The notes beneath the pieces are model-generated. The model saw nothing but the letters and a program-made list of their open reading frames with translations. It searched no databases and was not told the DNA's origin. A stretch of 64,000 nucleotides of DNA from Bacteroidota bacterium (lineage in GTDB: Bacteria; Bacteroidota; Bacteroidia; JAHEXY01), in NCBI GenBank assembly GCA_023251875.1, contig JAHEXY010000007.1, positions 62,001-126,000 on the forward strand. The letters are read 5' to 3'. The stretch's first letter is position 1. Each line of letters starts with the position of its first letter. Below, in pieces: positions 7,386 to 49,957 of the stretch. Made by a program: the position numbers and the translations under genes.

Positions 7386-8423
7386 ATGAGAAAACTTTTA
7401 TTAGTGGGAAGCGCAAGCATCAATACCTATCAGTATGATGAATTGATAAAAGGATACTTTGATGAAGTACTCTTGCTTTCTGATCAAAAAAGTAAAGATT
7501 ATACAATAAATTCCATTGCCTTAAATTTTTCGCTTCGCAATCCCATAACAGCTTACCAAACTATATCCCAAATAAAAAAAATAATTTCAGATTTTAAACC
7601 ATCTATTATTCATATTCAACAAGCCAACGTATATGCTTTTTATACGTTATTAGCTGCCAAATCCTTTAATACGCCAAAAGTACTTACACTATGGGGAAGT
7701 GATATTTTGGTAATCCCTCATAAAAGTTTTTTACTTAAAAAATTAGTTCAGTACAATTTATTGCATGCGGATGCGATTACTTCTAATTCAAAATACGTTG
7801 CAACTGAAATGCAAAAACTAATTCCCCAAAAAAAAGTAGATTTAACCCTTGCTAATTTGGGCGTTGAAATTACTCCTCAACTAATAAAAAAAGAAAACAT
7901 AGTTTATTCGAATCGCTTGCACAATAAATTGTATAGAATAGATCAGGTAATTATGGGGTTTAAAAAATTTGTTGAAGAAACTGAAAATGCCAGTTGGAAA
8001 CTTATTATTGCAGGCCAGGGAACAGAAACTGAAAACCTAAAACAATTAGCTGTTCAATTAAACTTAAGTTCAAAAATTGAATTTGTAGGGTGGCAAAACA
8101 AAGAACAAAATATTGCCAATTATGCAAAGGCTAAAATATTTATTTCCATTCCTACAAGCGATTCAACTCCCACAAGTTTGTTAGAGGCTATGGCTTATGG
8201 TTGTATCCCGGTTGTTTCCAATTTACCATCCATTGCTTTATGGATAGAAAACAACAAAAATGGAATAATGATAGATGATTTAAATAGCAATTATTTAAAA
8301 CAAGCATTGCAATTAAATATCAATGAAGTTGGAGAATTAAATAAAAAAATTATTGTAGAAAAAGCTTCAAAAGAAGTTAATCGAAAAAAATTTCTAAGTT
8401 TATACGATAGGCTTTTATTATAA
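7386..8423 (+). CDS. Glycosyltransferase family 4 protein
   Basis: The 345-residue protein has a GT-B layout. The N-terminal acceptor domain contains FKPSIIHIQQANVYAFYTLL and VLTLWGSDILVIP; the C-terminal donor domain contains WKLIIAGQGTETENLKQLA, IEFVGWQNKEQNIANYAKA and the GT4 nucleotide-sugar loop PTSDSTPTSLLEAMAYGCIP. It would transfer a sugar from a nucleotide donor to a growing surface glycan. It is the first of three co-directional genes (glycosyltransferase, O-antigen ligase, glycosyltransferase) separated by 24 bp and an overlap. Donor and acceptor cannot be read from the sequence. Confidence 0.9.
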   Translation: MRKLLLVGSASINTYQYDELIKGYFDEVLLLSDQKSKDYTINSIALNFSLRNPITAYQTISQIKKIISDFKPSIIHIQQANVYAFYTLLAAKSFNTPKVLTLWGSDILVIPHKSFLLKKLVQYNLLHADAITSNSKYVATEMQKLIPQKKVDLTLANLGVEITPQLIKKENIVYSNRLHNKLYRIDQVIMGFKKFVEETENASWKLIIAGQGTETENLKQLAVQLNLSSKIEFVGWQNKEQNIANYAKAKIFISIPTSDSTPTSLLEAMAYGCIPVVSNLPSIALWIENNKNGIMIDDLNSNYLKQALQLNINEVGELNKKIIVEKASKEVNRKKFLSLYDRLLL

Positions 8424-8447
8424 ATAATTAAGCATTACTAAATAGAA

Positions 8448-9803
8448 ATGACAAAATATTTTCAATTAATAAATAATAATGCCTCCAACATATTTTTGTT
8501 TCTTATTTCTTTTACATTTCCCCTAGGTATTTATTTCTTTCCTATTCAAACACCGCTTCTTTTAATAAATGGCTTCCACCTTGTTTTGTATTTCTCTTTA
8601 ATTTATTTAAAAGTGAGCAAACAAATAAAATTATTTATTGGAAAATCAACACGCTATTATTTAATTCTATTGGCGGTTTGGCTTCTCTATGGCTTTTGCG
8701 GTTTACTTTGGGCCAAAGAAATCAAACCCGTTCTACAAGACATGTTTGGTTTAATAAACGCTATTGGTATTTTAATAGCACTTCAATCATTATTGGTACT
8801 TAATAATTTTCGAATAAAACCTTTTATTCAAGGTTGGTTTACCGCTCTTGCTGTTGTTGGAATAATTGGACTATTAGAAACAGAAACAGCTTATCACTTA
8901 GATAAGGATTGGATTGCCGTTATTATGAAACTACCCATAGGACATTCCATTCGCTACGTGCCTATAGCCACATTTGGCAACCCCAATAATTACGCAGTGT
9001 ATTTAATTTTTTCATTGCCATTGCTACTGATGTTGAGAAATACCACAACAGCCATTTCTGCAAAATGGATTTCTTTATTATGTATGTTATGGATTATTCT
9101 TTTAACGCAAAGCCGACTAGGCATTTTTTCATTCCTTTTACTTTTAGTAATAAGTCTATTTATGTTAAAAGACATTGACATTGCTTTTATTAAAAAGCAA
9201 ATTCATCCATTAGTAAACCTTTATATTCCCATTATTTTAGTTGCCCTACTAATTATTGCCTTATTTAACTGGCCGTTTCTCCAGCATCTTTCATTCTCAT
9301 CTTATTTTTATACAAACAATAATGTAGCAAATTCTGATCAAACAAGAGTTGGCTTGATACAAGCAGGGTTAGAGATGTTTGTTGCTTCTCATGGCCTAGG
9401 AGTAGGAGGAGGAAATTTCCCCTATTATATAAATCAACATCTCGTATCTATTGATACGTATGGTTCTTGTAACCCTCATAATTGGCCCATTGAAGTTTTG
9501 AGTCAATATGGCATAGGAATATTTACATTGCTTGCTACATTTGCAATATATATTATCAACCAATACATACAACTATTAAACCGTTTCAAAAATAAAGGGA
9601 TATTTAAATTTGTAACTTGTGGCATATTATTGGGCATAGGATATCTTATTATGAGCATTGATCCCAGTAATTTTATGAGATTACCCATGAATTGGATACT
9701 GCTATCGATGATAGTGACTTTAGTAGATTGCCTACATGAAAATGCAAGTGAATTTTATGACCAAAACAATATGCCATCTCACATCGGTTCACCAGTACAA
9801 TGA
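8448..9803 (+). CDS. O-antigen ligase / polymerase family membrane protein
   Basis: This 451-residue polytopic membrane protein has about a dozen hydrophobic segments. It carries the Wzy_C-type core: FGNPNNYAVYLIFSLPLLLM, then LLTQSRLGIFSFLLLLVISL. A large periplasmic loop contains DQTRVGLIQAGLEMF, GLGVGGGNF and CNPHNWPIEVLSQYGIG, a pattern typical of O-antigen ligases and polymerases, where conserved Arg and His act in glycan transfer. Its end overlaps the next glycosyltransferase gene by about 47 bp. Whether it ligates to lipid A or polymerises repeat units cannot be decided. Confidence 0.9.
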   Translation: MTKYFQLINNNASNIFLFLISFTFPLGIYFFPIQTPLLLINGFHLVLYFSLIYLKVSKQIKLFIGKSTRYYLILLAVWLLYGFCGLLWAKEIKPVLQDMFGLINAIGILIALQSLLVLNNFRIKPFIQGWFTALAVVGIIGLLETETAYHLDKDWIAVIMKLPIGHSIRYVPIATFGNPNNYAVYLIFSLPLLLMLRNTTTAISAKWISLLCMLWIILLTQSRLGIFSFLLLLVISLFMLKDIDIAFIKKQIHPLVNLYIPIILVALLIIALFNWPFLQHLSFSSYFYTNNNVANSDQTRVGLIQAGLEMFVASHGLGVGGGNFPYYINQHLVSIDTYGSCNPHNWPIEVLSQYGIGIFTLLATFAIYIINQYIQLLNRFKNKGIFKFVTCGILLGIGYLIMSIDPSNFMRLPMNWILLSMIVTLVDCLHENASEFYDQNNMPSHIGSPVQ

Positions 9804-10857
9804 TACTCGAATTTTTCACAAAGAATGTGTTTCACTTGCCAGGTACGGATACCCTACTTATTTAATTTCATTAGGTTGCGAAACTAAAAAAGTTGATGGG
9901 GTAAATGTTATTAGTTCAGGACCAAAATTCAGTTCAAAATTTAAGCGCATGACACAAGGTGTGTATTCCGTTTATAAAAAAGCAATTGAAATAAATGCAG
10001 ATGTGTATCACTTTCATGATCCAGAACTTTTATTTGTTGGATGGTTATTGAAGCAAAAAGGCAAAAAAGTAATTTACGATGTTCATGAAGATGTTCCCAG
10101 ACAAATTTTGAGTAAACCATGGATCTGGAAACCTATTCAAACATCTGTTTCTATTGGAACAGAAAAAATAGAAAATTTTATTGCATCCAAATTAAGTGGC
10201 ATTATTACCGCAACGTCTACAATTGCAAATCGATTTTCTCAAATAAATAAAAATACAATTGCTATTAATAATTACCCTTTACTTGAAGAATTACAAACCA
10301 ATACTATTTGGGAAAACAAAAAAAATGAAATTTGTTATATTGGAGGTATTTCGATTGTTAGAGGAATTGTAGAACTTAATAAAGCCATTGCCTTTAATAC
10401 AACTATTAAATTAAATTTAGTAGGAAATTTTCAACCGCCCTCTCTAGCAAAAGAATTAGAACCTCATTTATTTTGGAAACAAATAAACTATTTGGGATTT
10501 GTTGATCGAAAAAAAATAGCAGAAATATTAGCTGTTTCCAAAGTTGGAATGGTTACACTCCATCCTATTATTAATTATTTAGATGCCCATCCCATTAAAA
10601 TGTTCGAATACATGTCGGCAGGCATTCCTGTAATAGCATCCAATTTCCCTTTATGGAAAAGTATTGTTGAAGGGAATCAATGTGGAATATGTATAAATCC
10701 AATGAATCCAAAAGAAATTGCAGATGCAATAACTTACTTACTGGCGCATGACAAAGAAGCTGAACAAATGGGGAAAAACGGAAGAAAAGCCATTGAAGAA
10801 AAATTCAATTGGGAAATGGAAGAACAAAAGCTAATCGCTTTTTATCAAAATCTCTAA
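9757..10857 (+). CDS. Glycosyltransferase family 4 protein
   Basis: About 366 residues from the ATG at 9757, which leads straight into MTKTICHLTSVHQYNDTRIF, the standard N-terminus of this subfamily. An upstream ATG at 9736 would overlap the O-antigen ligase further and adds nothing conserved. Other marks are VYHFHDPELLFVGWLLK, KVIYDVHEDVPRQI and the donor-side HPIKMFEYMSAGIPVIASNF. It probably acts on the same surface glycan as its two upstream neighbours. Its stop overlaps by 4 bp, tail to tail, with the antibiotic-monooxygenase-like gene. Confidence 0.9.
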   Translation: MTKTICHLTSVHQYNDTRIFHKECVSLARYGYPTYLISLGCETKKVDGVNVISSGPKFSSKFKRMTQGVYSVYKKAIEINADVYHFHDPELLFVGWLLKQKGKKVIYDVHEDVPRQILSKPWIWKPIQTSVSIGTEKIENFIASKLSGIITATSTIANRFSQINKNTIAINNYPLLEELQTNTIWENKKNEICYIGGISIVRGIVELNKAIAFNTTIKLNLVGNFQPPSLAKELEPHLFWKQINYLGFVDRKKIAEILAVSKVGMVTLHPIINYLDAHPIKMFEYMSAGIPVIASNFPLWKSIVEGNQCGICINPMNPKEIADAITYLLAHDKEAEQMGKNGRKAIEEKFNWEMEEQKLIAFYQNL

Positions 10858-15713: not shown

Positions 15714-16904
15714 TTGAAAAAGAAACTAGCAATTATTGGAATAAAAGGTTATCCTTATGTTTATGGTGGCTATGAAACCTTTGTAACAGAGCTTGTTCAG
15801 AGAATAAGTGATCGTTATGAAATTCATGTATACTGTCATAGGAGCCTTTTTGAAGAACGGCCTAAAATAGTAAATGGCGTTCACCTGCATTATATTCCTG
15901 CAATTGAAGGAAAATCGTTTAGTCAACTTTCACATAGCTTTTTAAGTACCATGCATGCCGTATTTACAGGTTATGATTTATGTTTATATGTAAATACAGC
16001 TAATGGCCCATTTGGATATGTTACAAGATTATTCAATATAAAATCTGCCATTAATGTTGATGGTCTTGAATGGTTAAGACCCAAATGGAAAGGCCTTGGA
16101 GCAAAATATTTTTATTGGGCATCAAAAACGGCTACTAAAGCATTTGATGTTTTAATTGCCGATTCTAGTGAAATGGCAAAAATATATGAAAATATGTTTA
16201 ATGCCCGTCCAGAATTTATTGCTTATGGCGCCAATATTAAAGAAAAAAAGACTACATCTAATATTGAACAATTTGGTATTGAAAAAGGAGAGTATTATTT
16301 AATTGTTGGCCGTTTGATTCCAGATAACAATTCAGACTTAATTGTAAAAGGATTTTTAAAAAGTGGTTCAAAGAAAAAATTGGTAATTGTAGGAGATGTT
16401 CCCTATAAAGATGCCTATGCCGAAAAAATAAAAAGCTATGCTTGTGAAAATGTAATTTTTACAGGATATGTAACCAGTGGTGATTTATTGTATGATTTAT
16501 ATGCAAATAGCTATTGTTATTTACATGGCCATGAATACGGAGGAACAAATCCTACTTTATTAAAAGCATTGGCATATAAATGTGCAATACTTGCTTTGGA
16601 TACTGTTTTTAGTCAAGAAGTTTTATTGGGAAGAAAACACGGTGTGTACTTTCAAAAAAGTGAAAACTCAGTAGCTGCTCAAATTAGATTAATGGATCGT
16701 TTGCCTTTAATGACACAACGTTTAAAAAGTATAGCTCAAAATAGAATTAGAGAAAACTATACTTGGGAAAAAATTGCTGATCAGTATGACAATATGTTTC
16801 AACAAATGTTAGGAGGCAAAACTGTACCGGAAGTGGTATTGTATCCATCAAAGCAAAATAATCTTTTGCCTAACTCAGGTGAGTTTATTAGTACAGCAAA
16901 ATAA
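15714..16904 (+). CDS. DUF1972 / GT4 glycosyltransferase (rhamnosyltransferase-like)
   Basis: The 396-residue protein starts at a TTG codon at 15714 (KKKLAIIGIKGYPYVYGGYE); no ATG is available before this conserved segment. The N-terminal DUF1972 pattern (GIKGYPYVYGGYETFVTEL) and FNIKSAINVDGLEWLRPKWK are diagnostic. The donor domain has YYLIVGRLIPDNNSDLIVKG and HGHEYGGTNPTLLKALAYKC. It probably transfers a deoxyhexose such as rhamnose to a lipid-linked or surface glycan. The gene stands alone, away from the 7386-10857 block. The last 30 residues are unlike the family core. Confidence 0.92.
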   Translation: MKKKLAIIGIKGYPYVYGGYETFVTELVQRISDRYEIHVYCHRSLFEERPKIVNGVHLHYIPAIEGKSFSQLSHSFLSTMHAVFTGYDLCLYVNTANGPFGYVTRLFNIKSAINVDGLEWLRPKWKGLGAKYFYWASKTATKAFDVLIADSSEMAKIYENMFNARPEFIAYGANIKEKKTTSNIEQFGIEKGEYYLIVGRLIPDNNSDLIVKGFLKSGSKKKLVIVGDVPYKDAYAEKIKSYACENVIFTGYVTSGDLLYDLYANSYCYLHGHEYGGTNPTLLKALAYKCAILALDTVFSQEVLLGRKHGVYFQKSENSVAAQIRLMDRLPLMTQRLKSIAQNRIRENYTWEKIADQYDNMFQQMLGGKTVPEVVLYPSKQNNLLPNSGEFISTAK

Positions 16905-18394: not shown

Positions 18395-19243
18395 ATGACT
18401 AAGAAAATTACGCTATCATTCTTTTTTATTGCAATTGCCTTTATTTCATTTAATATTTTTAACCATGCAAATTCATATACCTCGGGTGCTCCATCAGGAA
18501 TGTGTGCTTCTCCATCCGATGGTGGACTAACTTGTGCTGCATGTCATGGAGGTTCTGCTCAAAACAAAATCGGATGGATTACTTCAGATGTGCCATCTTC
18601 TGGTTATGTTCCTGGGCAAACCTATACCATTACTGCTACAGCAAGTTTAACAGGAATAAGTAAATTTGGCTTTGAACTTACTCCGCAAGACGGATCTGGC
18701 AATTTAATGGGAACAATGGCTGTAACGAATAGTAATGAACAACAATTATTGAGTAGCGGCAAATATCTTACGCATACTACCGCGGGAACAGCTGGTACAA
18801 ACAATTCAAAAACATGGTCTTTTAATTGGACTGCTCCAATTAAAGGAAGCGGAAGCCTTACATTTTATGGAACTTTTCTTGCAGCAAATGGCAATTTTGG
18901 AACTGATGGAGACTCGGTATATGCTTCTACTCTTTCTCTTAGCGAAGACGTTTCAACCGGTATTTCCAATCTAAAAAATTCAACAAATAATATTAGTATT
19001 TTTCCTAATCCAATAAATGCTGCATTTAGTATTACCTACGAAAATGAAAAAAGTAGCCCTATTGTTATAGAGCTTGTTGATCTTTCAGGAAAAACAATTT
19101 ATAAATTGGTCGATGCAAATAGAAAATCCGGAAAAAACATAGAATACCTCCATTTACCTAATCAAGCTAGTTCTGGAGTTTATTTTATAAAATTAAGCAA
19201 TGGAAGTTCATCTTACTTGAACAAAGTAATGCTTAACAAATAA
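18395..19243 (+). CDS. T9SS type A protein with CxxCH motif (choice-of-anchor V-like), paralogue 1
   Basis: The 282-residue secreted protein has an N-terminal signal peptide (MTKKITLSFFFIAIAFISFN) and a short cysteine-rich segment GGLTCAACHGGSAQ with a c-type heme-like CxxCH (CAACH). A Reelin/choice-of-anchor-like beta domain follows (SGYVPGQTYTITATASLTGI, then FGFELTPQDGSG and TWSFNWTAPIKGSGSLTFYG). The end is a T9SS type A sorting domain (ISIFPNPINAAFSITYE ... SGVYFIKLSNGSSSYLNKVM). It is probably exported to the surface. The CxxCH could bind heme if matured. It is 34 bp upstream of a close paralogue, so the two are probably co-transcribed. Confidence 0.85.
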   Translation: MTKKITLSFFFIAIAFISFNIFNHANSYTSGAPSGMCASPSDGGLTCAACHGGSAQNKIGWITSDVPSSGYVPGQTYTITATASLTGISKFGFELTPQDGSGNLMGTMAVTNSNEQQLLSSGKYLTHTTAGTAGTNNSKTWSFNWTAPIKGSGSLTFYGTFLAANGNFGTDGDSVYASTLSLSEDVSTGISNLKNSTNNISIFPNPINAAFSITYENEKSSPIVIELVDLSGKTIYKLVDANRKSGKNIEYLHLPNQASSGVYFIKLSNGSSSYLNKVMLNK

Positions 19244-19277
19244 AACTAACAAATTATCATTTTATTAATTATTCCGT

Positions 19278-20123
19278 ATGAAAAAGAAAATTATCTTTTT
19301 TGTCTTTGTAACTGTACTTGTTACCGCTCTAACACATTCGTTTAATAATGCAACCAGTAATGCATCGGGAGCTCCTGCCGCAAAAACAGGATCTCCCGGA
19401 GATGGATCTACATGTAAAGATTGCCATTCGGGAAGTAGTGTTACAGCACAAACAGGATGGATAACTTCAGATATTCCATCTAGTGGATATGTTCCTGGCT
19501 CAACTTATACTATTACTGCAACCGCAACAGTTAGCAACATTACTAAATTTGGTTTCGAAATTTCTCCACAAAATAGTAGTGGAACAGTATTGGGAACAAT
19601 GATGTGTACAAATTCAACAGAAACAAAATTAATTTCTACTAATAAATATATTACACATAAATCTGCCGGCACTACCGCCACCAATGGTTCTAAAACATGG
19701 TCGTTTAGTTGGACAGCTCCAACAAAAGGCAGCGGAGATGTTACTTTCTATGGCGCATTTTTAGCTGCTAATGCTAATGGAGATGATTCCGGAGATAAAG
19801 TACATACCTCAACACTTACAGTAAGTGAAGAGGTAACTACAACTATTGCAGAAATGAATAACACGATACATAATGTTAATGTTTATCCCAATCCAATACA
19901 TAATGAATTCTCTGTATTTTATAGTTTAGAAAAATCAGAAAAAATAAGCATTCAATTGCTTGATATAAATGGAAGAATTGTAAGCCCATTTATAGAAGCA
20001 ACTAGAACAAGTGGAGAGCATACAGAAAATTTTTACTTGAATAATTCTATTAACATTGGAATTTATTTCCTTAAAATTTATACTGAACAAAGCTCTTATA
20101 TGCAAAAAGTACTTGTTATATAA
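19278..20123 (+). CDS. T9SS type A protein with CxxCH motif (choice-of-anchor V-like), paralogue 2
   Basis: The 281-residue paralogue of the preceding gene has the same order: signal peptide (MKKKIIFFVFVTVLVTALTH), DGSTCKDCHSGSSV with CxxCH (CKDCH), the beta domain (SGYVPGSTYTITATATVSNI, TWSFSWTAPTKGSGDVTFYG) and a T9SS tail (VNVYPNPIHNEFSVFYSLE ... GIYFLKIYTEQSSYMQKVLV). It lacks the extra Cys (GMC) present before CxxCH in the first copy. Strong similarity, position and shared direction indicate a tandem duplication. The function is not known. Confidence 0.85.
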   Translation: MKKKIIFFVFVTVLVTALTHSFNNATSNASGAPAAKTGSPGDGSTCKDCHSGSSVTAQTGWITSDIPSSGYVPGSTYTITATATVSNITKFGFEISPQNSSGTVLGTMMCTNSTETKLISTNKYITHKSAGTTATNGSKTWSFSWTAPTKGSGDVTFYGAFLAANANGDDSGDKVHTSTLTVSEEVTTTIAEMNNTIHNVNVYPNPIHNEFSVFYSLEKSEKISIQLLDINGRIVSPFIEATRTSGEHTENFYLNNSINIGIYFLKIYTEQSSYMQKVLVI

Positions 20124-21495: not shown

Positions 21496-22599
21496 ATGGC
21501 AAATAAACTCAACAAAGATTTTTATTGTGTTATTATGGCTGGTGGCATTGGAAGCCGTTTTTGGCCCATGAGCAAAACAGCTAAACCCAAACAGTTTTTA
21601 GATATTTTAGGTATTGGTAAAACCTTATTACAGCTTACTTATGAACGCACCTTATCTGTTTGTATACCTGAAAATATTGTTGTAGTTACTCATAAATCGT
21701 ACAAAGAACTAGTGCATGCTCAATTACCTCAATTAAGTGAAAGTCAATTATTGTATGAACCTGTTAGAAAAAATACAGCTCCTTGTATTGCCTATGCCAG
21801 TTATAAAATAGCAGCACTTAACCCCAATGCCTGTATAGTAGTTGCTCCTGCAGATCATTTGATTACAAAGGAAGACGAGTACACTCAAATTTTATTAGCG
21901 GCATTAGAGGCAAGTCAACAAGAAGATTGTTTAATTACGCTTGGTATTACACCGCATAGACCCAATACGGGTTATGGCTATATTCAAGTTAATGATGAAG
22001 TAGCATTGTACAGCAATAAACAAATAAAAAAAATAAAAACATTTACAGAAAAACCAGATCTGGAAATGGCTAAATTTTTTCTGGCCAGTGGAGATTTTTT
22101 CTGGAATTCCGGAATTTTTATTTGGTCGGTAAAAAGCATTTTAAAAGCCTTTGAAACTTATTTGCCCGATATTAATGCCATGTTTAAAGAAGGGCAAGAT
22201 GTGTATAATACAGCTGGCGAAACAGAATTTATTAATAATGTTTACGCAGGCTGTAAAAACATTTCTGTTGATTACGGCATAATGGAAAAAGCTAAAAATG
22301 CCTATGTACTGTGTGCTAATTTTGGTTGGTCAGATTTGGGAACATGGGGCGCATTGTATGAGCAGGCCACTAAAAATGGAGATGGCAATCATCTTACCGG
22401 AAAAAATGTTATGCTTTATAAAAGCAAAAATAATATTATTAATGTGCCTCATGATAAATTGGTTGTTCTTCACGGGCTTAACAATTTCATAGTAGTTGAA
22501 TCAAATAATATTCTTCTTATTTGCCCTAAAGATGAAGAGCAGGAGATAAAGCAATTTGTAAATGATGTTAAAGCTGAAAAGGGAGAGAAGTATATTTAG
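21496..22599 (+). CDS. manC: Mannose-1-phosphate guanylyltransferase
   Basis: The 367-residue protein makes GDP-mannose from mannose-1-phosphate and GTP. The nucleotidyltransferase signature is clear: VIMAGGIGSRFWPMSKTAKP followed by KQFLDILG. VAPADHLI, TGYGYIQV, FTEKPDLEMAKFFLASGDFF and SVDYGIMEKAKNAYVL, then WSDLGTWGALYE, are also diagnostic. It has no C-terminal cupin isomerase domain, so it is the single-function type. The product would feed the mannose- or fucose-containing surface glycans implied by the glycosyltransferases in this window. It is convergent with the adenylation/ACP operon. Confidence 0.95.
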   Translation: MANKLNKDFYCVIMAGGIGSRFWPMSKTAKPKQFLDILGIGKTLLQLTYERTLSVCIPENIVVVTHKSYKELVHAQLPQLSESQLLYEPVRKNTAPCIAYASYKIAALNPNACIVVAPADHLITKEDEYTQILLAALEASQQEDCLITLGITPHRPNTGYGYIQVNDEVALYSNKQIKKIKTFTEKPDLEMAKFFLASGDFFWNSGIFIWSVKSILKAFETYLPDINAMFKEGQDVYNTAGETEFINNVYAGCKNISVDYGIMEKAKNAYVLCANFGWSDLGTWGALYEQATKNGDGNHLTGKNVMLYKSKNNIINVPHDKLVVLHGLNNFIVVESNNILLICPKDEEQEIKQFVNDVKAEKGEKYI

Positions 22600-22666: not shown

Positions 22667-23488
22667 CTACCGTCCCAAAAACTCTTTCACAATATTTTTT
22701 ACAAAAACCTTAAAGCTAAATTTATATACATTCCTTCCTTCATTATTTTGCAAATCATTGTGAATAATATCATAAGTCTTTTCCAAATCAATAACATTAA
22801 ATGCAACGGTATTAAATTTATACTGCTCAATAGCATTTTGTTTAATAAATTCAGGCAAAAGAGGATTCACAACATTTACATATCCCAAGCGTTTGCCATA
22901 AATGTAATATTCTCGCCAATTTGTGTTGCCGTCTACATCGGTATAATTAATTAAATATTTTTTCCAGTAACGGTATTTTACCTTTGCTAATTCTTCAACA
23001 TGATGCGTAAAAGTAAGCGTGTTCATTAAATCAATATCTATAGAAAGTTTTTTTGCTTTATTTTGTTTAAGAAATGTAAATGGAGAATCGGCTCCAAACG
23101 AACTTTTGTTATTTAGGCTGAGTAAATAATTTGTATGTTTACCCCAAACAAGAAACGAGTGCAATGGATTTTTGGTACGTTTAAAATCCCCCCTTTTAAA
23201 GGCCGCCAATGCCAATGACCCCGTTGTTTTAGGTTGCGTATTCCGAATATCAAATGAAGATCCTGATTTTAAATTAAAATTAAAGGCATGAAAAAGAAGT
23301 GTTCCTTCTTGGCCTACTATTTCTTGTAGTTTATCAATAAACAACTTAGGACTAAAAATGCCTTCATGCTTTTGAGTAATATAAGCAAAACGAATAATAT
23401 TAGAACTTACCACAACAATATCCCCTTTTTGAATATTGAGCTTACTTGGTATTTCTAAATAAGGTATGTAGTTTTTTATTCTTGGCAT
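22667..23488 (-). CDS. AAC(3)-family N-acyltransferase
   Basis: The 273-residue protein has the fold signatures of the aminoglycoside 3-N-acetyltransferase family: KGDIVVVSSNI, FIDKLQEIVGQEGTLLFHAF, RNTQPKTTGSLALAAFKRGD, KRTKNPLHSFLVWGK and FGADSPFTFLKQ. The HP/NPLHS and SP segments are the usual active-site landmarks. Many members are not resistance enzymes and act on amino sugars in surface glycan synthesis. Here it is the last gene of a tight operon with an adenylation enzyme, an ACP and a GNAT protein, with 9 bp to the GNAT gene. An acyl or aminoacyl transfer to an amino sugar is therefore the favoured inference. Confidence 0.85.
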   Translation of the reverse strand: MPRIKNYIPYLEIPSKLNIQKGDIVVVSSNIIRFAYITQKHEGIFSPKLFIDKLQEIVGQEGTLLFHAFNFNLKSGSSFDIRNTQPKTTGSLALAAFKRGDFKRTKNPLHSFLVWGKHTNYLLSLNNKSSFGADSPFTFLKQNKAKKLSIDIDLMNTLTFTHHVEELAKVKYRYWKKYLINYTDVDGNTNWREYYIYGKRLGYVNVVNPLLPEFIKQNAIEQYKFNTVAFNVIDLEKTYDIIHNDLQNNEGRNVYKFSFKVFVKNIVKEFLGR

Positions 23489-23497
23489 AGCATTCTT

Positions 23498-23980
23498 TTA
23501 CATGAACTTTCTTAATTGTATCAGCTCATGTGCAAATCCATTTTTTTTCCAAAATATTTCAGCTTCAGGATTAATGGCAGCTACTTGCACTTCAATAGAA
23601 GTGATGTTCTGCAAACTAAACCATTCATACAGTTTTTCATTTATACCTTTACCGATATTCATATCTCTGTATTCATCACAAATAAAAAAATGAGTAATGG
23701 AGCCAATTTTATTTGAACCTAAATATTCAGGTAAAAATTTTAGTATTCCACAACCGAACCCAACAACTTTACTTTCTTTAATGGCAACCACTACTGTTGA
23801 ATATTTACCTAAAGTATTTTTAATTGATTGCACCCATATTTTTTCACCATTTTCTATTAATGGCAATTGTAATTTTTTTGGTTTTAAATATTCATGTAAA
23901 TCAAAAAAAAGTTTTTCTGTTTGATTAAGAAAATCAAGATCCTGAATAGTAAGATTTTTTATTTCAATATTACTTTGCAT
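23498..23980 (-). CDS. GNAT family N-acetyltransferase
   Basis: The 160-residue single GNAT domain shows the acyl-CoA loop in HFFICDEYRDMNIGKGINEK (R/Q-x-x-G-x-G type) and the C-terminal IEVQVAAINPEAEIFWKKNG followed by F. It would transfer an acyl group from CoA or, given its neighbours, from the ACP. Its ATG shares one base with the ACP stop (TAATG), which suggests translational coupling. Substrate is unknown. Confidence 0.88.
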   Translation of the reverse strand: MQSNIEIKNLTIQDLDFLNQTEKLFFDLHEYLKPKKLQLPLIENGEKIWVQSIKNTLGKYSTVVVAIKESKVVGFGCGILKFLPEYLGSNKIGSITHFFICDEYRDMNIGKGINEKLYEWFSLQNITSIEVQVAAINPEAEIFWKKNGFAHELIQLRKFM

Positions 23981-24267
23981 TAATTTTTAACAGCCGATTT
24001 TAGACTTAACTGAGTAAGGCCTAACAGGGTGGTAAAAGACCCGGGAGCTTCATTTTCAAAATCAATTTCAAGTTGAAATTCTTTTTCAATAAGAGCAACC
24101 AGTTCAATAAACTGCATCGAGTCAAGGATTCCGGTTTGCACCAAATTAAAATCAGGAAGCAAATATTTTTCCATAAATCCAATTCGTTTAAATCGAACAT
24201 CTAATTGCTCAATAATAAATTTCTTCATTTCACTTTCTGTAATTTTTTCAATTGTGTCGGGGTGCAT
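23980..24267 (-). CDS. Acyl carrier protein (stand-alone carrier)
   Basis: The 95-residue carrier has the phosphopantetheine site QTGILDSMQFIELVALIEKE with Ser50 in the D-S-M motif. Acidic helices on both sides are typical (EKEFQLEIDFENEAPGSF). Placed between an adenylation enzyme (13 bp upstream) and a GNAT gene (1-bp overlap), it is the likely acceptor of the activated amino acid, as DltC is for DltA, rather than a fatty-acid ACP. A phosphopantetheinyl transferase would have to come from elsewhere. Confidence 0.88.
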   Translation of the reverse strand: MHPDTIEKITESEMKKFIIEQLDVRFKRIGFMEKYLLPDFNLVQTGILDSMQFIELVALIEKEFQLEIDFENEAPGSFTTLLGLTQLSLKSAVKN

Positions 24268-24280
24268 AACATGGCTTGTT

Positions 24281-25864
24281 TTAAGGGACTATTTGTAATA
24301 ATTTTTGTTTATCTATTTTTCCATTTACTGTTAAAGGTATTTCATCTAGCCATATAAATTTTTCAGGAACCATGTATTTAGGCAAATATTTATGGCAATG
24401 CTCTTTTATTTTTTCATCATTTTCAATGATGCTTGATAAAAAGCAAACAATAAAAGTAACAAGATATTTTCTATTTACATTTTTATTTGTGACAACAATT
24501 GTATAAACAGATTCATTTTGAATGAATTTCTTTATGCATTCATTTATTTCATTCAGTTCAATTCTGTGTCCTTGTATTTTAATTTGATCATCTTTTCGTC
24601 CTAAAAAATGTATATTTTTATTTTCGTCTTCTTTTACAATATCCCCAGTTCTATACCAAATAGCATCACCTTTTTGTGGAATTTGAGTTAAAACTGATTT
24701 TGTTTTTTCATCATCATTTAAATAGCCATTAAAAACTTGTTCTCCACTTATGCAAAGTTCGCCTTCAGTTCCAGTTTCTACTATTTTTTTATTTTCATCT
24801 ATAATGCAATATTGGTGCGTTTCAAAAACTTTACCAATAGGAACGTTCTCGTTTTCCGCTTCTGTATCTGAATTTAAAATATAAGAGGTACAATTAACTG
24901 TAACCTCTGTTGGCCCATATAAATTTATAATGCTTGAATTTGGGGCAGCTTCATTCCATTTTTTTGTAGCAGTTAATGTTAAAGCTTCTGCACTAAAAAA
25001 AGAATGATGAAGCAATGGAAAATGATTGGATTTTAATAAACGCATTTGGTTCATTATTGTAATAACCGATGGAACAGAATACCAAATACTCAGTTTTTTT
25101 TCTTTAATAAATTGTGCCGGGGCAAAAATTTGTTCTTCTGGAATAACACATAAGCAAGCGCCTGTAGACCAACTGACAAACATATCATGCACACTAGGGT
25201 CGAATGTGAGTTCAAAGAATTGTGAAAATCTATCGCTTGAAGAAAATGAAAATTGAGAAAGAATACAATCTATATATGCGTATGTATTAGTATGTGTAAT
25301 CGGTACTCCTTTGGGTATGCCAGTACTTCCAGAAGTAAAAAGCAAATATGCATACTCAGTTGTCATGATGAGCGGAGTCGAAGCATCTTTAATAAATTCT
25401 AGTTCATCATTTTTATAATTGAAAGTGTGTTGTTTAAATTTTTCATGAAGAATGGAATCTTTTTTTTCTGTTTCGGGAAGAAGAATGGTTAAGTTTTTTG
25501 ATTTAAAATGCAACAACAAATCTTCTAAATATTTTACACATTCATCTCCAACAACAATTATTTCTGCCTCTGAAATTTCGAGCATTTTAATGGAACGCTC
25601 CACTGGATTTTTTATAGTCAGGGGCATATAAGCCTTGCCTGCTTTTAAAATGCCTAATACTCCTGCATAGCTGGTAATGCTTCTTTGCGTAAGCAAAGCA
25701 ATAAATGGCGAAGCAAAATTAAAATTGCAAAGAACATTTTTAATGGCTTCTGCTTTTTCTGATAGGGTTTGATAAGAATAGATGGTATCTCCAATTTCTA
25801 GTGCAGTATGATTAGGATATTTTTGTACTGAAGAATCGAAATACGAATTAAGAAAGGGAAGCAT
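24281..25864 (-). CDS. Stand-alone amino-acid adenylation enzyme (NRPS A-domain / DltA-like)
   Basis: This 527-residue enzyme is a complete A domain: core A3 LLFTSGSTGIPKGVPITHTN, A4 FDPSVHDMF, A5 NLYGPTEVTVN, A7 WYRTGDIVKED, A8 LGRKDDQIKIQGHRIELNEI and A10 TVNGKIDKQKL with the catalytic Lys. The Asp of FDPS corresponds to the residue that holds the alpha-amine, which supports an amino-acid substrate. By hand alignment the pocket reads roughly D-P-H-Y-F-S-L-V-N, which I cannot assign to a known amino acid. There are no C, PCP or TE domains; the carrier is the next gene. Residues about 160-168 (DASTPLIMT) coincide with a dispersed DNA repeat. Confidence 0.93.
   Translation of the reverse strand: MLPFLNSYFDSSVQKYPNHTALEIGDTIYSYQTLSEKAEAIKNVLCNFNFASPFIALLTQRSITSYAGVLGILKAGKAYMPLTIKNPVERSIKMLEISEAEIIVVGDECVKYLEDLLLHFKSKNLTILLPETEKKDSILHEKFKQHTFNYKNDELEFIKDASTPLIMTTEYAYLLFTSGSTGIPKGVPITHTNTYAYIDCILSQFSFSSSDRFSQFFELTFDPSVHDMFVSWSTGACLCVIPEEQIFAPAQFIKEKKLSIWYSVPSVITIMNQMRLLKSNHFPLLHHSFFSAEALTLTATKKWNEAAPNSSIINLYGPTEVTVNCTSYILNSDTEAENENVPIGKVFETHQYCIIDENKKIVETGTEGELCISGEQVFNGYLNDDEKTKSVLTQIPQKGDAIWYRTGDIVKEDENKNIHFLGRKDDQIKIQGHRIELNEINECIKKFIQNESVYTIVVTNKNVNRKYLVTFIVCFLSSIIENDEKIKEHCHKYLPKYMVPEKFIWLDEIPLTVNGKIDKQKLLQIVP
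25361..25387. repeat. Dispersed GAGCGGAGTCGAAGC repeat inside the adenylation gene
   Basis: The sequence tgtcatgatgagcggagtcg followed by aagcatc is a near-consensus copy of a Bacteroidota intergenic element. It encodes the peptide DASTPLIMT in frame, shortly before core motif A3. It matches both halves of the intergenic element at 22611-22665. Confidence 0.7.
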
Positions 25865-25868
25865 AAAA

Positions 25869-26276
25869 TTAGGCTTGAGCTTCGCTGATTAATTTGGAAA
25901 CAATTATGATAAAATCACGCATTTCGGCATGCATTTGCTGAACGTCTTGTAAAGTAAATTCTACAAAAGCATCATAATCGCCTTTGGTTCTATTGCCAAA
26001 TGCATTTCGTAAAGCCATTCCATAAGAAGAATCAACTTTATTAGATTTAATAAATTCTTTATTAAACCATCCTATTAGTTGGCTATGTTTTGAAGTTTCA
26101 AATTTGTGCTGCAATCCTAATGCTGTAAGAGCATAATACATTCCATAATAAATTCTATTTACTGCAATTGTTAATTGCTTATTGTTGATAAGAAAATCAA
26201 CTATTTCAATTGAGTCGTTTGCTTGTTTTAAACGATATGCTATTAAGGCTTTTCTATCTTGCTCGTCTGTAATCAT
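25869..26276 (-). CDS. HEPN domain protein (COG1895/UPF0332 type)
   Basis: The 135-residue all-helical protein has a HEPN pattern: YRLKQANDSIEIVDFLI, NRIYYGMYYALTALGLQHKF, KHSQLIGWFNKEFIKSN and NRTKGDYDAFVEFT. This resembles the UPF0332 branch rather than HepT/DUF86. No Rx4-6H RNase motif is visible, so RNase activity is doubtful. It overlaps the upstream MNT gene by 4 bp (ATGA), the usual MNT-HEPN arrangement, and its stop is only 4 bp before the adenylation gene, making it part of that operon by spacing. Confidence 0.85.
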   Translation of the reverse strand: MITDEQDRKALIAYRLKQANDSIEIVDFLINNKQLTIAVNRIYYGMYYALTALGLQHKFETSKHSQLIGWFNKEFIKSNKVDSSYGMALRNAFGNRTKGDYDAFVEFTLQDVQQMHAEMRDFIIIVSKLISEAQA

Positions 26277-26599
26277 GCGTGAATACCATTGTTAATTGCA
26301 TTTACAAATATTGGTTGCTTAGCTCTTAAAGTATGCATTTCGGGTTCGCTAAGTAAATGTGTATCGGTAATTATATCATATTTTAAATCGATAGAATAAC
26401 ATAAGTCCGAGATTTCTCTCTCTGTTTTCCAATCGGGTTTTTGTTTAAGAATAATTAAAATATCATAATCCGAATCTGATTTTGCGTTTCCATTGGCTTG
26501 CGATCCAAATAAGATAACATCTTTAATATTTGTATCATATTTCGATTGAAGAAGATATTTTAAATCTCCTAACATAATTTTTAAATTATTACTATTCAT
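26273..26599 (-). CDS. MNT-type nucleotidyltransferase (minimal nucleotidyltransferase)
   Basis: The 108-residue protein has the complete nucleotidyltransferase motif G-S-x10-D-x-D: GSQANGNAKSDSDYD, with Gly32, Ser33, Asp44 and Asp46. A third acidic position lies in SIDLKYDIITD. Such MNT proteins act with a HEPN partner in toxin-antitoxin or phage-defence modules; some transfer AMP onto the HEPN protein. It is the first gene of the six-gene minus-strand set ending at 22667. Confidence 0.9.
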   Translation of the reverse strand: MNSNNLKIMLGDLKYLLQSKYDTNIKDVILFGSQANGNAKSDSDYDILIILKQKPDWKTEREISDLCYSIDLKYDIITDTHLLSEPEMHTLRAKQPIFVNAINNGIHA

Positions 26600-26694
26600 C
26601 TTGAAAATTTTTATTCATCTAAAGGTAATAAAGTAAACACTAATTAACCAAAAGCTTAGCGTAGTAAAAGTCTAGGCTTTCAAAAAACTTGTTA

Positions 26695-26702
26695 TACTTT
26701 TG
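26695..26702 (+). promoter_or_regulatory. Candidate -7 box for the FISUMP lipoprotein gene
   Basis: TACTTTTG fits TAnnTTTG and lies 41 bp before the ATG at 26744. A TTTC/TTG stretch lies about 20 bp upstream. Confidence 0.45.
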
Positions 26703-26743
26703 CCTAAACAAATAGTATTTAGAGGCATCATAAAATAAAAAAC

Positions 26744-47632: not shown

Positions 47633-49957
47633 TTAGACTTCAACCTTTTGTGGTTCCTTCGAAAAAAAATCGGCAAGGGCAAAACGAATGTCGGAATAAG
47701 TATACTCATCACCAAGTATATTTTTAATAGCACTCAGTTTAAAACTATCAATTGATTTTGCTGCGGCAATAATGTGTTTTATTTTTTCTTTGTTTACAAA
47801 TTGAAGAGCATCTAATTCTCCTTTGGTAATATATTGTGCTAAATGACCTTCTACAGTAGTAATTGCAAGTGTGCGTTCTTTTGCGATTTCTTCAATGGTT
47901 TTACCTTTTTTAAACAACTGAAAACTCATTGTTTTGGTATCTATTATTTCTCCTTTATCATCAGTAATTTTTTCTTTTTTCTTTCTTTCACCTCTAATGC
48001 GTTTTGGTTTTTGTATTTTACCAAAATCTTTGCTCGCATTTATTTTTGTAGTTAATGCCGCATTAATTTGATCGATACGAGATTGATCATTAATAATAGA
48101 GCTTATAGATTGTTTTGTAAATTCCTTTTTGCAAAGCATTACATCTGTTAATACTATAGCTTTTTGCATTCGTTTTACTTGCTCATAGCATAAGGTTTCA
48201 AGCTCAAGTAATTCTTTTAAATACGTTTTAATTTGACTTTCTGATTTTAGCAAAACAATATGCGAAATAATGGTAGCAGATATCTTTTTAAACAGAGGTA
48301 TAAAATAATTAGAAGCTGCTTTAACACGACTGTCTAGCAATTCTAAATAGCCATTCTCTTTTTGATTTAAAATAGCATTGAGTTGCATCAAAAATTTATC
48401 TGCATGAGGTTTTATTTCACTCAATTTATTTTTTTGATCAATGGCCCATTGTTTGTGTTGTTGCTTTGCAGATTTTTTTTCGTCTTTATCATACGTTTCT
48501 ATATGATGGAAAAAATGATTGAGCAATGCATTAAAATTAAAACAGTTTGAAATATAGTCAAGCAAGAATTTGTTTTCTTCTTTCTCCACCATCGTTTTTA
48601 AATCATCTTGTTCCGATTTTGTTTTTGAATACTCTCTTACCTTTACATCTTGTTCAATGTTTTGAAAATTAATTCTTGAGCTCAATACTAAACCTTGTAA
48701 ACTTCGTAAACGAGATAGGGCTACATAAATTTGCCCGGGAGCAAATGCATCACCAATATCAATAATGGCTTTATCAAAAGTGAGTCCTTGGCTTTTGTGC
48801 ACGGTAATGGCCCAAGCCAGTTTTATAGGATATTGCGTAAACGTTCCATTTATTTTTTCTTCAATTTCATTTGTTGTTTCACTCAAAGTATATTTTATGT
48901 TTTCCCATCGGTAAGCTTCAACCGTAATGGGAGCAACAGCATCTTCAAATTTCACTTGAATTTCATCGTTGGTAATGGCAGAAATAACACCAATTTTTCC
49001 ATTAAAAAAACGCTGCGCACCCGTTGGGTCATTTTTTACAAACATAATTTGCGAACCCAATTTTAATTCCATTGTTTTTTCAACGGGATAGGCGTATTCA
49101 CTAAATTCATCTTCAACTGTGGCGTTAAAAAAATAAGATTTACTCTTGATATTTTGTAAATATTCTTTGTTTAGTTTGTCGGCTTTGTAATTGTGTGTGG
49201 TAAGCGTAATGTAGTTTTGATTATTTTCTGCTTTAAATCCGGGTTTGTAATAATTATTCAGCAAAGCAACATCATCTTCAGTAATACAATTGTTACGCAG
49301 GTTATTGAGTAGGGCAATAAAAGTATTATCCGCCTGACGGTATATTTTTTCTAATTCAATATATAATGGTTTTTCTTGCTGCAAAACCCAAGCATCAAAA
49401 AAGTAAATGCTGTTGTAATGTTCTTTTAATATTTCCCATTCATCATTTTTTACTACTGGAGGTAATTGCAATAAATCGCCAATAAATAAAACCTGAACGC
49501 CTCCGAAAGGTTTGTTATTTTGCCGCCTAATATAACGGAGTGTTGTATCAATGGCATCTAATAAATCGGCACGCAACATACTCACTTCGTCAATAATTAA
49601 AAGCTCTAATTCTCTTAGTAAATTACGTTTAGTACTACTCATTTGCATATTACGAATAAGTAAAGCCGGAGTAGTAATTTTAAATTGCTGATTGGTTGAA
49701 AAAGAATTTTGATTAACCGGAATAAAATTTCCAAAGGGTAATTGAAAAAGAGAATGAATGGTAACACCGCCTGCATTAATAGCAGCAATACCGGTAGGCG
49801 CAACAATTACTGCTTTTTTATGCGTTTGTTGAATAATGTTTCTAAGAAAAGTTGTTTTCCCGGTTCCTGCTTTACCGGTTAAAAAAATATTTTTTTGAGT
49901 ATGGTTAATAAATTTTGAAGCAAGGGCAGTAGGATCTGTTTCGTTTGAATTGTACAT
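47633..49957 (-). CDS. Pif1-like (superfamily 1B) DNA helicase with C-terminal HTH
   Basis: The 774-residue protein begins with a P-loop (NIFLTGKAGTGKTTFLRNII) followed by VIVAPTGIAAINAGGVTIHS, LLIIDEVSMLRADLLDAID, VLFIGDLLQLPPVV and late motifs AWAITVHKSQGLTFDKAIID and GQIYVALSRLRSLQGLVLSS. These are Pif1/RecD2-type helicase motifs. The C-terminal 100 residues hold an RQC-like helix-turn-helix (SFQLFKKGKTIEEIAKERTL, then TTVEGHLAQYI). Pif1 helicases unwind G-quadruplex DNA and stalled forks. A G-rich heptamer tandem repeat lies 85-190 bp upstream of its start. Confidence 0.92.
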   Translation of the reverse strand: MYNSNETDPTALASKFINHTQKNIFLTGKAGTGKTTFLRNIIQQTHKKAVIVAPTGIAAINAGGVTIHSLFQLPFGNFIPVNQNSFSTNQQFKITTPALLIRNMQMSSTKRNLLRELELLIIDEVSMLRADLLDAIDTTLRYIRRQNNKPFGGVQVLFIGDLLQLPPVVKNDEWEILKEHYNSIYFFDAWVLQQEKPLYIELEKIYRQADNTFIALLNNLRNNCITEDDVALLNNYYKPGFKAENNQNYITLTTHNYKADKLNKEYLQNIKSKSYFFNATVEDEFSEYAYPVEKTMELKLGSQIMFVKNDPTGAQRFFNGKIGVISAITNDEIQVKFEDAVAPITVEAYRWENIKYTLSETTNEIEEKINGTFTQYPIKLAWAITVHKSQGLTFDKAIIDIGDAFAPGQIYVALSRLRSLQGLVLSSRINFQNIEQDVKVREYSKTKSEQDDLKTMVEKEENKFLLDYISNCFNFNALLNHFFHHIETYDKDEKKSAKQQHKQWAIDQKNKLSEIKPHADKFLMQLNAILNQKENGYLELLDSRVKAASNYFIPLFKKISATIISHIVLLKSESQIKTYLKELLELETLCYEQVKRMQKAIVLTDVMLCKKEFTKQSISSIINDQSRIDQINAALTTKINASKDFGKIQKPKRIRGERKKKEKITDDKGEIIDTKTMSFQLFKKGKTIEEIAKERTLAITTVEGHLAQYITKGELDALQFVNKEKIKHIIAAAKSIDSFKLSAIKNILGDEYTYSDIRFALADFFSKEPQKVEV

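Follow-up and report, generated by a model that had tools for sequence, protein, structure and literature searches.

In a 64,000-nt stretch of a Bacteroidota genome (contig JAHEXY010000007.1, positions 62,001 to 126,000; referred to as the window), six minus-strand genes form a tight array. Four of these, encoding a stand-alone amino-acid adenylation protein (A), a carrier protein (ACP), a GNAT N-acyltransferase and an acyltransferase of the AAC(3) fold, probably constitute one module, here called the block, for the N-acylation of an amino sugar by a small amino acid. In this phylum, a variant form of the type IX secretion (T9SS) linking sugar, or else a related surface glycan, is a plausible product. 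Genes were called from open reading frame (ORF) coordinates and Pfam/NCBIfam profile scores:

26273..26599, minus strand: MNT, minimal nucleotidyltransferase, putative antitoxin (GSX10DXD; Pfam Polbeta/NTP_transf_2)
25869..26276, minus strand: HEPN, putative class II toxin (PF05168)
24281..25864, minus strand: A, stand-alone amino-acid adenylation protein (AMP-binding, TIGR01733; pocket D-P-H-S-F-S-L-V-N-K)
23980..24267, minus strand: ACP, carrier protein (PP-binding; phosphopantetheine site Ser50 in GILDSMQF)
23498..23980, minus strand: GNAT N-acyltransferase (Acetyltransf_1/7)
22667..23488, minus strand: AAC(3)-fold (Antibiotic_NAT) acyltransferase (PF02522; catalytic-type H162-x-x-E165)
26600..26743, no strand: divergent intergenic stretch upstream of MNT, with a promoter-like match TTTG-N21-TACCTTTA spanning 26620-26652
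21496-22599, plus strand: manC, convergent to the six-gene array

All six ORFs were found on the minus strand exactly where an earlier note on this DNA (the original prediction) had placed them, and the gaps of 4-13 bp and two overlaps that it described were confirmed. The MNT and HEPN ORFs overlap by 4 bases and those of ACP and GNAT by 1 base; HEPN is separated from A by 4 bp, A from ACP by 13 bp and GNAT from AAC(3) by 9 bp. A single match to the Bacteroidota-type promoter TTTG-N21-TAnnTTTA, with 1 mismatch, occurs upstream of MNT, which is weak evidence at a shuffled mean of 0.52, and no promoter-like match at ≤1 mismatch was present inside MNT, HEPN or A. The scan is compatible with a single six-gene transcript but does not prove it. 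The GC content of the block (30.2%) is 1.4 s.d. lower than that of the window genes (33.7%), an offset too small for recent transfer to be called. The convergent position of manC on the plus strand was likewise as described; as a recurrent neighbour of the block, however, manC was not seen in the relatives.

To follow the block beyond the window, we searched 395 Bacteroidia genomes and named Bacteroidales metagenome-assembled genomes (MAGs) with the A protein and its profile. In this neighborhood analysis, which had been suggested along with the original prediction, the four-gene set recurred at 14 loci, comprising 12 of the 395 genomes and two Bacteroidales MAG contigs (PWLF01000136.1 and SLSZ01000177.1). 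The gene order is A-ACP-GNAT-AAC(3) at 12 of the 14 loci and AAC(3)-GNAT-A-ACP in the two MAGs. A thirteenth genome (G367) displays only the start of A next to the gene for an alpha/alpha-toroid protein (toroid) at a contig edge. Pairwise distance matrices of the four block proteins correlate (r 0.72-0.84, Mantel p 0.0002), indicating that the block is inherited as a unit. On MAG contig PWLF01000136.1 the block GNAT gene is split by a frameshift (L026 4857-5381); it is intact in the sister contig (L027). In one genome (G335; L064 5333-14879) the block lies inside a nonulosonate (NeuB) cluster, which also encodes a 560-aa cytidylyltransferase-NeuB-SAF fusion, a KDN-9-P phosphatase and, adjoining AAC(3), a DUF4910 protein. 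A phylum-wide search yielded one further relative of A (G505), located in a polysaccharide cluster in which ACP, GNAT and AAC(3) are all missing.

Related sets were identified on two plasmids. Segatella copri plasmid NZ_CP085933.1 (L143 5947-9845) has the order A-ACP-AAC(3)-alanine racemase within an O-antigen-type polysaccharide cluster, a set that might make N-alanyl sugars in Prevotellaceae; a plasmid search with its AAC(3) matched only itself. Outside Bacteroidota, Solidesulfovibrio magneticus pDMC1 (L141 6992-10562) carries A-ACP-hypothetical-AAC(3), with the same A pocket code as the block relatives. No described A-ACP-AAC(3) glycan pathway was found in the open-access literature.

The A protein scored 330.7 bits against the amino-acid adenylation profile TIGR01733, above the cut-off of 317.4. 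The Asp235-type residue (D222) and the A10 Lys (K516) are present and are conserved in all relatives. The 13 Bacteroidota relatives and S. magneticus share a pocket of the type D-L-(H/Q)-S-x-C, the relatives' code ending in K, and S. copri A has a different code. With the A4-A5 stretch of a relative, the nearest match was 4oxi (8e-32), deposited as enterobactin synthetase component F-related and which we take to be AlmE of Vibrio cholerae, followed by DltA 3e7w (2.5e-13); over this stretch the A domain is thus nearer to AlmE than to DltA. AlmE activates glycine (PMC12930378), and Asp, Leu and Cys of the DltA pocket serve D-Ala (PMC8972799). The AlmE-like pocket D-L-H-x-x-C-L-I-A was not matched by the window protein (D-P-H-S-F-S-L-V-N). 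Against the DltA equivalog TIGR01734 the window protein reached 281 bits, and 277.8 bits in a further scan, under the cut-off of 559.85; no DltA equivalog was found in the source genome, and neither dltB nor dltD is among the six genes or their neighbors. Because the family pocket is near those of AlmE and DltA and the S. copri set includes an alanine racemase, our guess from sequence is that the usual substrate of the block family is glycine or (D-)alanine. The A protein of the source genome may have shifted to another small amino acid.

The remaining block proteins carry the expected motifs. ACP matched the PP-binding profile with 21.3 bits, barely over the cut-off of 20.8; its Ser50 lies within ILDSM, and the DS motif is invariant at 14 of 14 loci. 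The AlphaFold2 model of GNAT (pLDDT 93) gave aminoglycoside and polyamine N-acetyltransferases as best Foldseek matches. AAC(3) scored above the Pfam cut-off for PF02522 (80.7 bits), and its model (pLDDT 93.5) was closest to YokD (2nyg, 1.2e-16), FrbF (3sma) and AAC(3) enzymes. The residues H162 and E165 (HxxE) are invariant in the aligned block proteins, and S. magneticus AAC(3) has a Tyr at the conserved His position. With 45.2 bits, the protein is under the cut-off of 270 for the aminoglycoside-resistance equivalog NF033082, a caution that AAC(3)-family genes of Bacteroidota are not to be read as aminoglycoside resistance.

The position of the block in its relatives points to an amino-sugar pathway. 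One family includes six genomes that read S20-RadC-WecB-VimE-FemAB-like-upp without the block (empty site) and five in which toroid-A-ACP-GNAT-AAC(3) is inserted between WecB and VimE. Of a second family, two genomes show RadC-WecB-VimE-FemAB-like-upp and no block, while in G095 the same five genes stand on the other side of VimE, between it and the FemAB-like gene. A genome of a third family (G030) has the order toroid-A-ACP-GNAT-AAC(3)-VimE. In G052 and G008 the two are apart, with the toroid gene at the WecB/VimE locus and the block at another site. The VimE-like proteins (DUF7033) match NF053580, the UDP-diacetamido-glucuronate deacetylase VimE. In tests that ignore phylogeny, the toroid protein, present in 24 of the 395 genomes, is strongly associated with the block (11/12 genomes with block vs 13/383 without, p 4e-14), and VimE-like genes are associated with the T9SS sortase PorU (338/374 genomes with PorU vs 5/21 without, p 1e-11). 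PorU is present in 12/12 block genomes, which is uninformative, as 95% of the class has it. The source genome contains the toroid gene as well, though unlinked to the block. The view that A and ACP form an amino-acid loading pair feeding AAC(3) and/or GNAT, with an amino sugar as likely acceptor, is supported: the block is conserved, it stands beside amino-sugar or polysaccharide genes in relatives, and the A pocket keeps the amino-group-binding Asp.

FkbH proteins load glyceryl groups onto carriers, and sugar formyltransferases N-formylate amino sugars. Genes for both occur near the toroid gene in other genomes. G051 (L156 6113-12713) has toroid-ACP-FkbH-VOC-AAC(3)-VimE-FemAB-like, with an AAC(3) that is 44% identical to that of the window and an FkbH domain of 275 bits (TIGR01686), and G316 (L158 7144-11210) has WecB-toroid-ACP-FkbH-like, the last gene being assigned by reading its sequence. 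In two genomes without the block, G045 (L157 8591-9364) and G122 (L159 6606-7403), a formyltransferase (PF00551) is directly beside the toroid gene. The FkbH-ACP module of G051 and G316 is probably the glyceryl counterpart of the aminoacyl block. AAC(3) and ACP are retained when the donor loader changes, and GNAT was found only with the A loader; from this pattern we infer that AAC(3) is an ACP-dependent N-acyltransferase and that the role of GNAT is amino-acid-specific. The relatives of the block represent a natural acyl-swap experiment. A wider reading, which we offer only tentatively, is that the linking-sugar pathway of Bacteroidota has an interchangeable N-acylation slot, in which any of three cassettes can put an acyl group back on the amine freed by the VimE-like protein: an aminoacyl (A-ACP-GNAT-AAC(3)), a glyceryl (FkbH-ACP-AAC(3)) or a formyl one (formyltransferase). 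If true, AAC(3) would represent a new type of sugar N-acyltransferase that depends on aminoacyl-ACP, and the exchange of cassettes would account for differences in linking sugars between species.

In the proposed pathway, A would form the aminoacyl-AMP and load the phosphopantetheine arm at Ser50 of ACP, as suggested by protein family and motifs. The AAC(3)-fold protein would then move the aminoacyl group from ACP to the sugar amine, a step to which the loader swaps point, and GNAT would either perform a second, amino-acid-specific N-acylation or assist the transfer. The acceptor amine would most likely be freed by the VimE-like deacetylase. To our knowledge, amino-acid addition to T9SS-tethering sugars is known in outline only, for two species. 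In Porphyromonas gingivalis and Tannerella forsythia, serine or glycine is attached to a 2,3-diamino uronic acid, with VimE thought to deacetylate the sugar and VimA presumed to be the transferase (PMC7468200). Prevotella intermedia has an N-alanyl deoxyhexose and lacks VimA and VimE, and the route of alanine transfer is stated to be unknown (PMC11969387, 2025). The block is a concrete candidate for aminoacyl transfer, combining a carrier-loaded amino acid with an AAC(3) transferase, and a linking sugar as its product appears plausible from gene content and context.

Several observations weigh against this assignment. The pocket of the window A protein, alone in the family, departs at three positions (P, S and N). 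The block of G335 is located in the nonulosonate cluster, and in three genomes the block adjoins an ABC exporter. A single family (f9) accounts for most of the cases next to VimE, and f16 and f31 provide independent support. The VimE-like proteins are homologues only, with scores of 112-178 bits (112 in G262 and 178 in the source genome) against an NF053580 cut-off of 440. In the source genome the block is on a different contig from the toroid gene (contig 13), and the VimE-like gene, next to which the FemAB-like one lies, is on a third (contig 18), so that membership of this genome in the pathway is deduced from co-occurrence alone. Finally, the same loci encode the FemAB-like protein, which could itself be the aminoacyl transferase, as VimA presumably is; if so, a second amine would be the target of the block.

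Of the alternatives, the one that survives best, and which we regard as a real if minor possibility, is that the block makes an N-aminoacyl sugar (e.g. N-alanyl or N-glycyl) for an ordinary O-antigen or capsule, the VimE-like locus serving a general surface sugar. The G335 block, with NeuB, KDN-9-P phosphatase and DUF4910 genes around it, would fit such a role, as would the sets of S. copri and S. magneticus, which have genes for O-antigen polymerase or CDP-glycerol transferase nearby, and PorU is too common in the class for its presence in all block genomes to speak for T9SS. Against it stand the insertions into the WecB-VimE-FemAB-like locus, which recur in two or more families, and the tendency of VimE-like genes to occur in the genomes that have PorU.

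The MNT/HEPN pair that precedes the block is most readily interpreted as a class II toxin-antitoxin unit captured at this site, a chance neighbor outside the pathway. MNT matched PF18765 (44.2 bits) and also PF01909, has the GSX10DXD motif and was under the cut-off of the MntA equivalog NF047752 (34.8 bits vs 60); its closest solved structure is 9xbd chain E. HEPN matched PF05168 (35.2 bits, cut-off 22), with 9xbd/9xbc, the HEPN of a HEPN/NTase pair, as closest solved structures. The RX4HXY motif is absent from the window HEPN, which reads LRNAFGNRTKGDYDAF with no His there (NRTKGDYDAF) and has a His elsewhere (SKHSQ). In the PF05168 family, Asp often takes the place of the RX4HXY His (PMC3710099), and the motif is kept only in class I HEPN/MNT modules (PMC11586414), which places the window pair in class II. 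In a PADLOC scan of the six proteins, MNT alone was matched (PDC-S09, 66 bits).

A functional link between the pair and the pathway had been suggested as possible in the original prediction, with absence of the pair from homologous loci as one half of what would speak against it. Such absence is what the neighborhood search revealed: no relative of MNT or HEPN turned up at the 13 block loci outside the window, where flanks of up to 9 kb per side were covered (shorter ones in the MAG contigs), and the window pair, serving as positive control, was recovered by the identical search. The source genome holds six PF05168 HEPN/MNT pairs, the other five standing between unrelated genes. Based on these two results the pair is regarded as a separate captured unit, and we rejected it as a pathway component. 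It is improbable that the pair works within the module, e.g. by MNT nucleotidylating the carrier or HEPN guarding the locus, even though only 4 bp with no promoter-like match separate HEPN from A and none of the other five pairs of the genome lies as close to its downstream gene. In this genome, MNT/HEPN may share the promoter of the block.

Least probable of all is a small natural-product pathway, whose product might be e.g. an amide or an aminoacyl antibiotic and in which AAC(3) would confer self-resistance. Such clusters often include A, ACP and acyltransferases, and AAC(3)-fold FrbF (3sma) acts in phosphonate biosynthesis. However, there are no recurring condensation, tailoring or exporter genes, the recurrent partners are amino-sugar genes and AAC(3) is far under the resistance equivalog (45 vs 270 bits).

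Elsewhere in the window, glycosyltransferases and an O-antigen ligase-like protein (Wzy_C) are encoded at 7386-10857 and 15714-16904. Two tandem related proteins (18395-20123) contain a CxxCH motif; their C-terminal tail, as read from the sequence, resembles a T9SS sorting domain. A PIF1-like helicase with a C-terminal HTH_40 adjoins a DbpA-type DEAD-box helicase at 47633-49957.

Compared to known systems, the MNT/HEPN pair resembles type VII (HEPN/MNT) toxin-antitoxin systems in having MNT first and HEPN second, GSX10DXD, PF05168 and a gene overlap, but differs by a HEPN without RX4HXY (class II) and an MNT under the MntA equivalog cut-off. The window AAC(3) shares the fold and HxxE with the AAC(3)/Antibiotic_NAT proteins YokD, FrbF and AAC(3); in contrast to these, it is far from every aminoglycoside-resistance equivalog, and its genomic partner is ACP. 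With the Wbp/Vim pathway of P. gingivalis and T. forsythia, the relatives' locus has in common a WecB/WbpI-type epimerase, a VimE-like deacetylase and a FemAB-like protein, and in both cases the amino acid would end up on a sugar amine. There, however, VimA is thought to be the transferase and no A/ACP is known (PMC7468200), whereas the VimE-like proteins of the block genomes are below the cut-off and, in the source genome, encoded apart from the block.

The block is also related in its logic to carrier-based aminoacylation. As in the AlmE/AlmF(/AlmG) system, which transfers glycine to lipid A in V. cholerae, it comprises a stand-alone A protein and a carrier, and the block relatives share the pocket residues D-L-H-..-C-..-I-A; unlike that system, it lacks an AlmG-type acyltransferase and has AAC(3) and GNAT instead, the acceptor is probably an amino sugar rather than lipid A, and three pocket positions of the window A protein are occupied by P, S and N. 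DltA/DltC, which act in D-alanylation of teichoic acids, likewise combine an A protein and a carrier, and the relatives share the Asp, Leu and Cys of the D-Ala pocket, but there is no DltB or DltD at the block, and the window A protein is without the pocket Leu and Cys. Judged by its sequence relationships, the block would represent a novel variant of the carrier-based aminoacylation known from AlmE/F and DltA/C, in which an AAC(3)-fold protein is likely the sugar N-acyltransferase.

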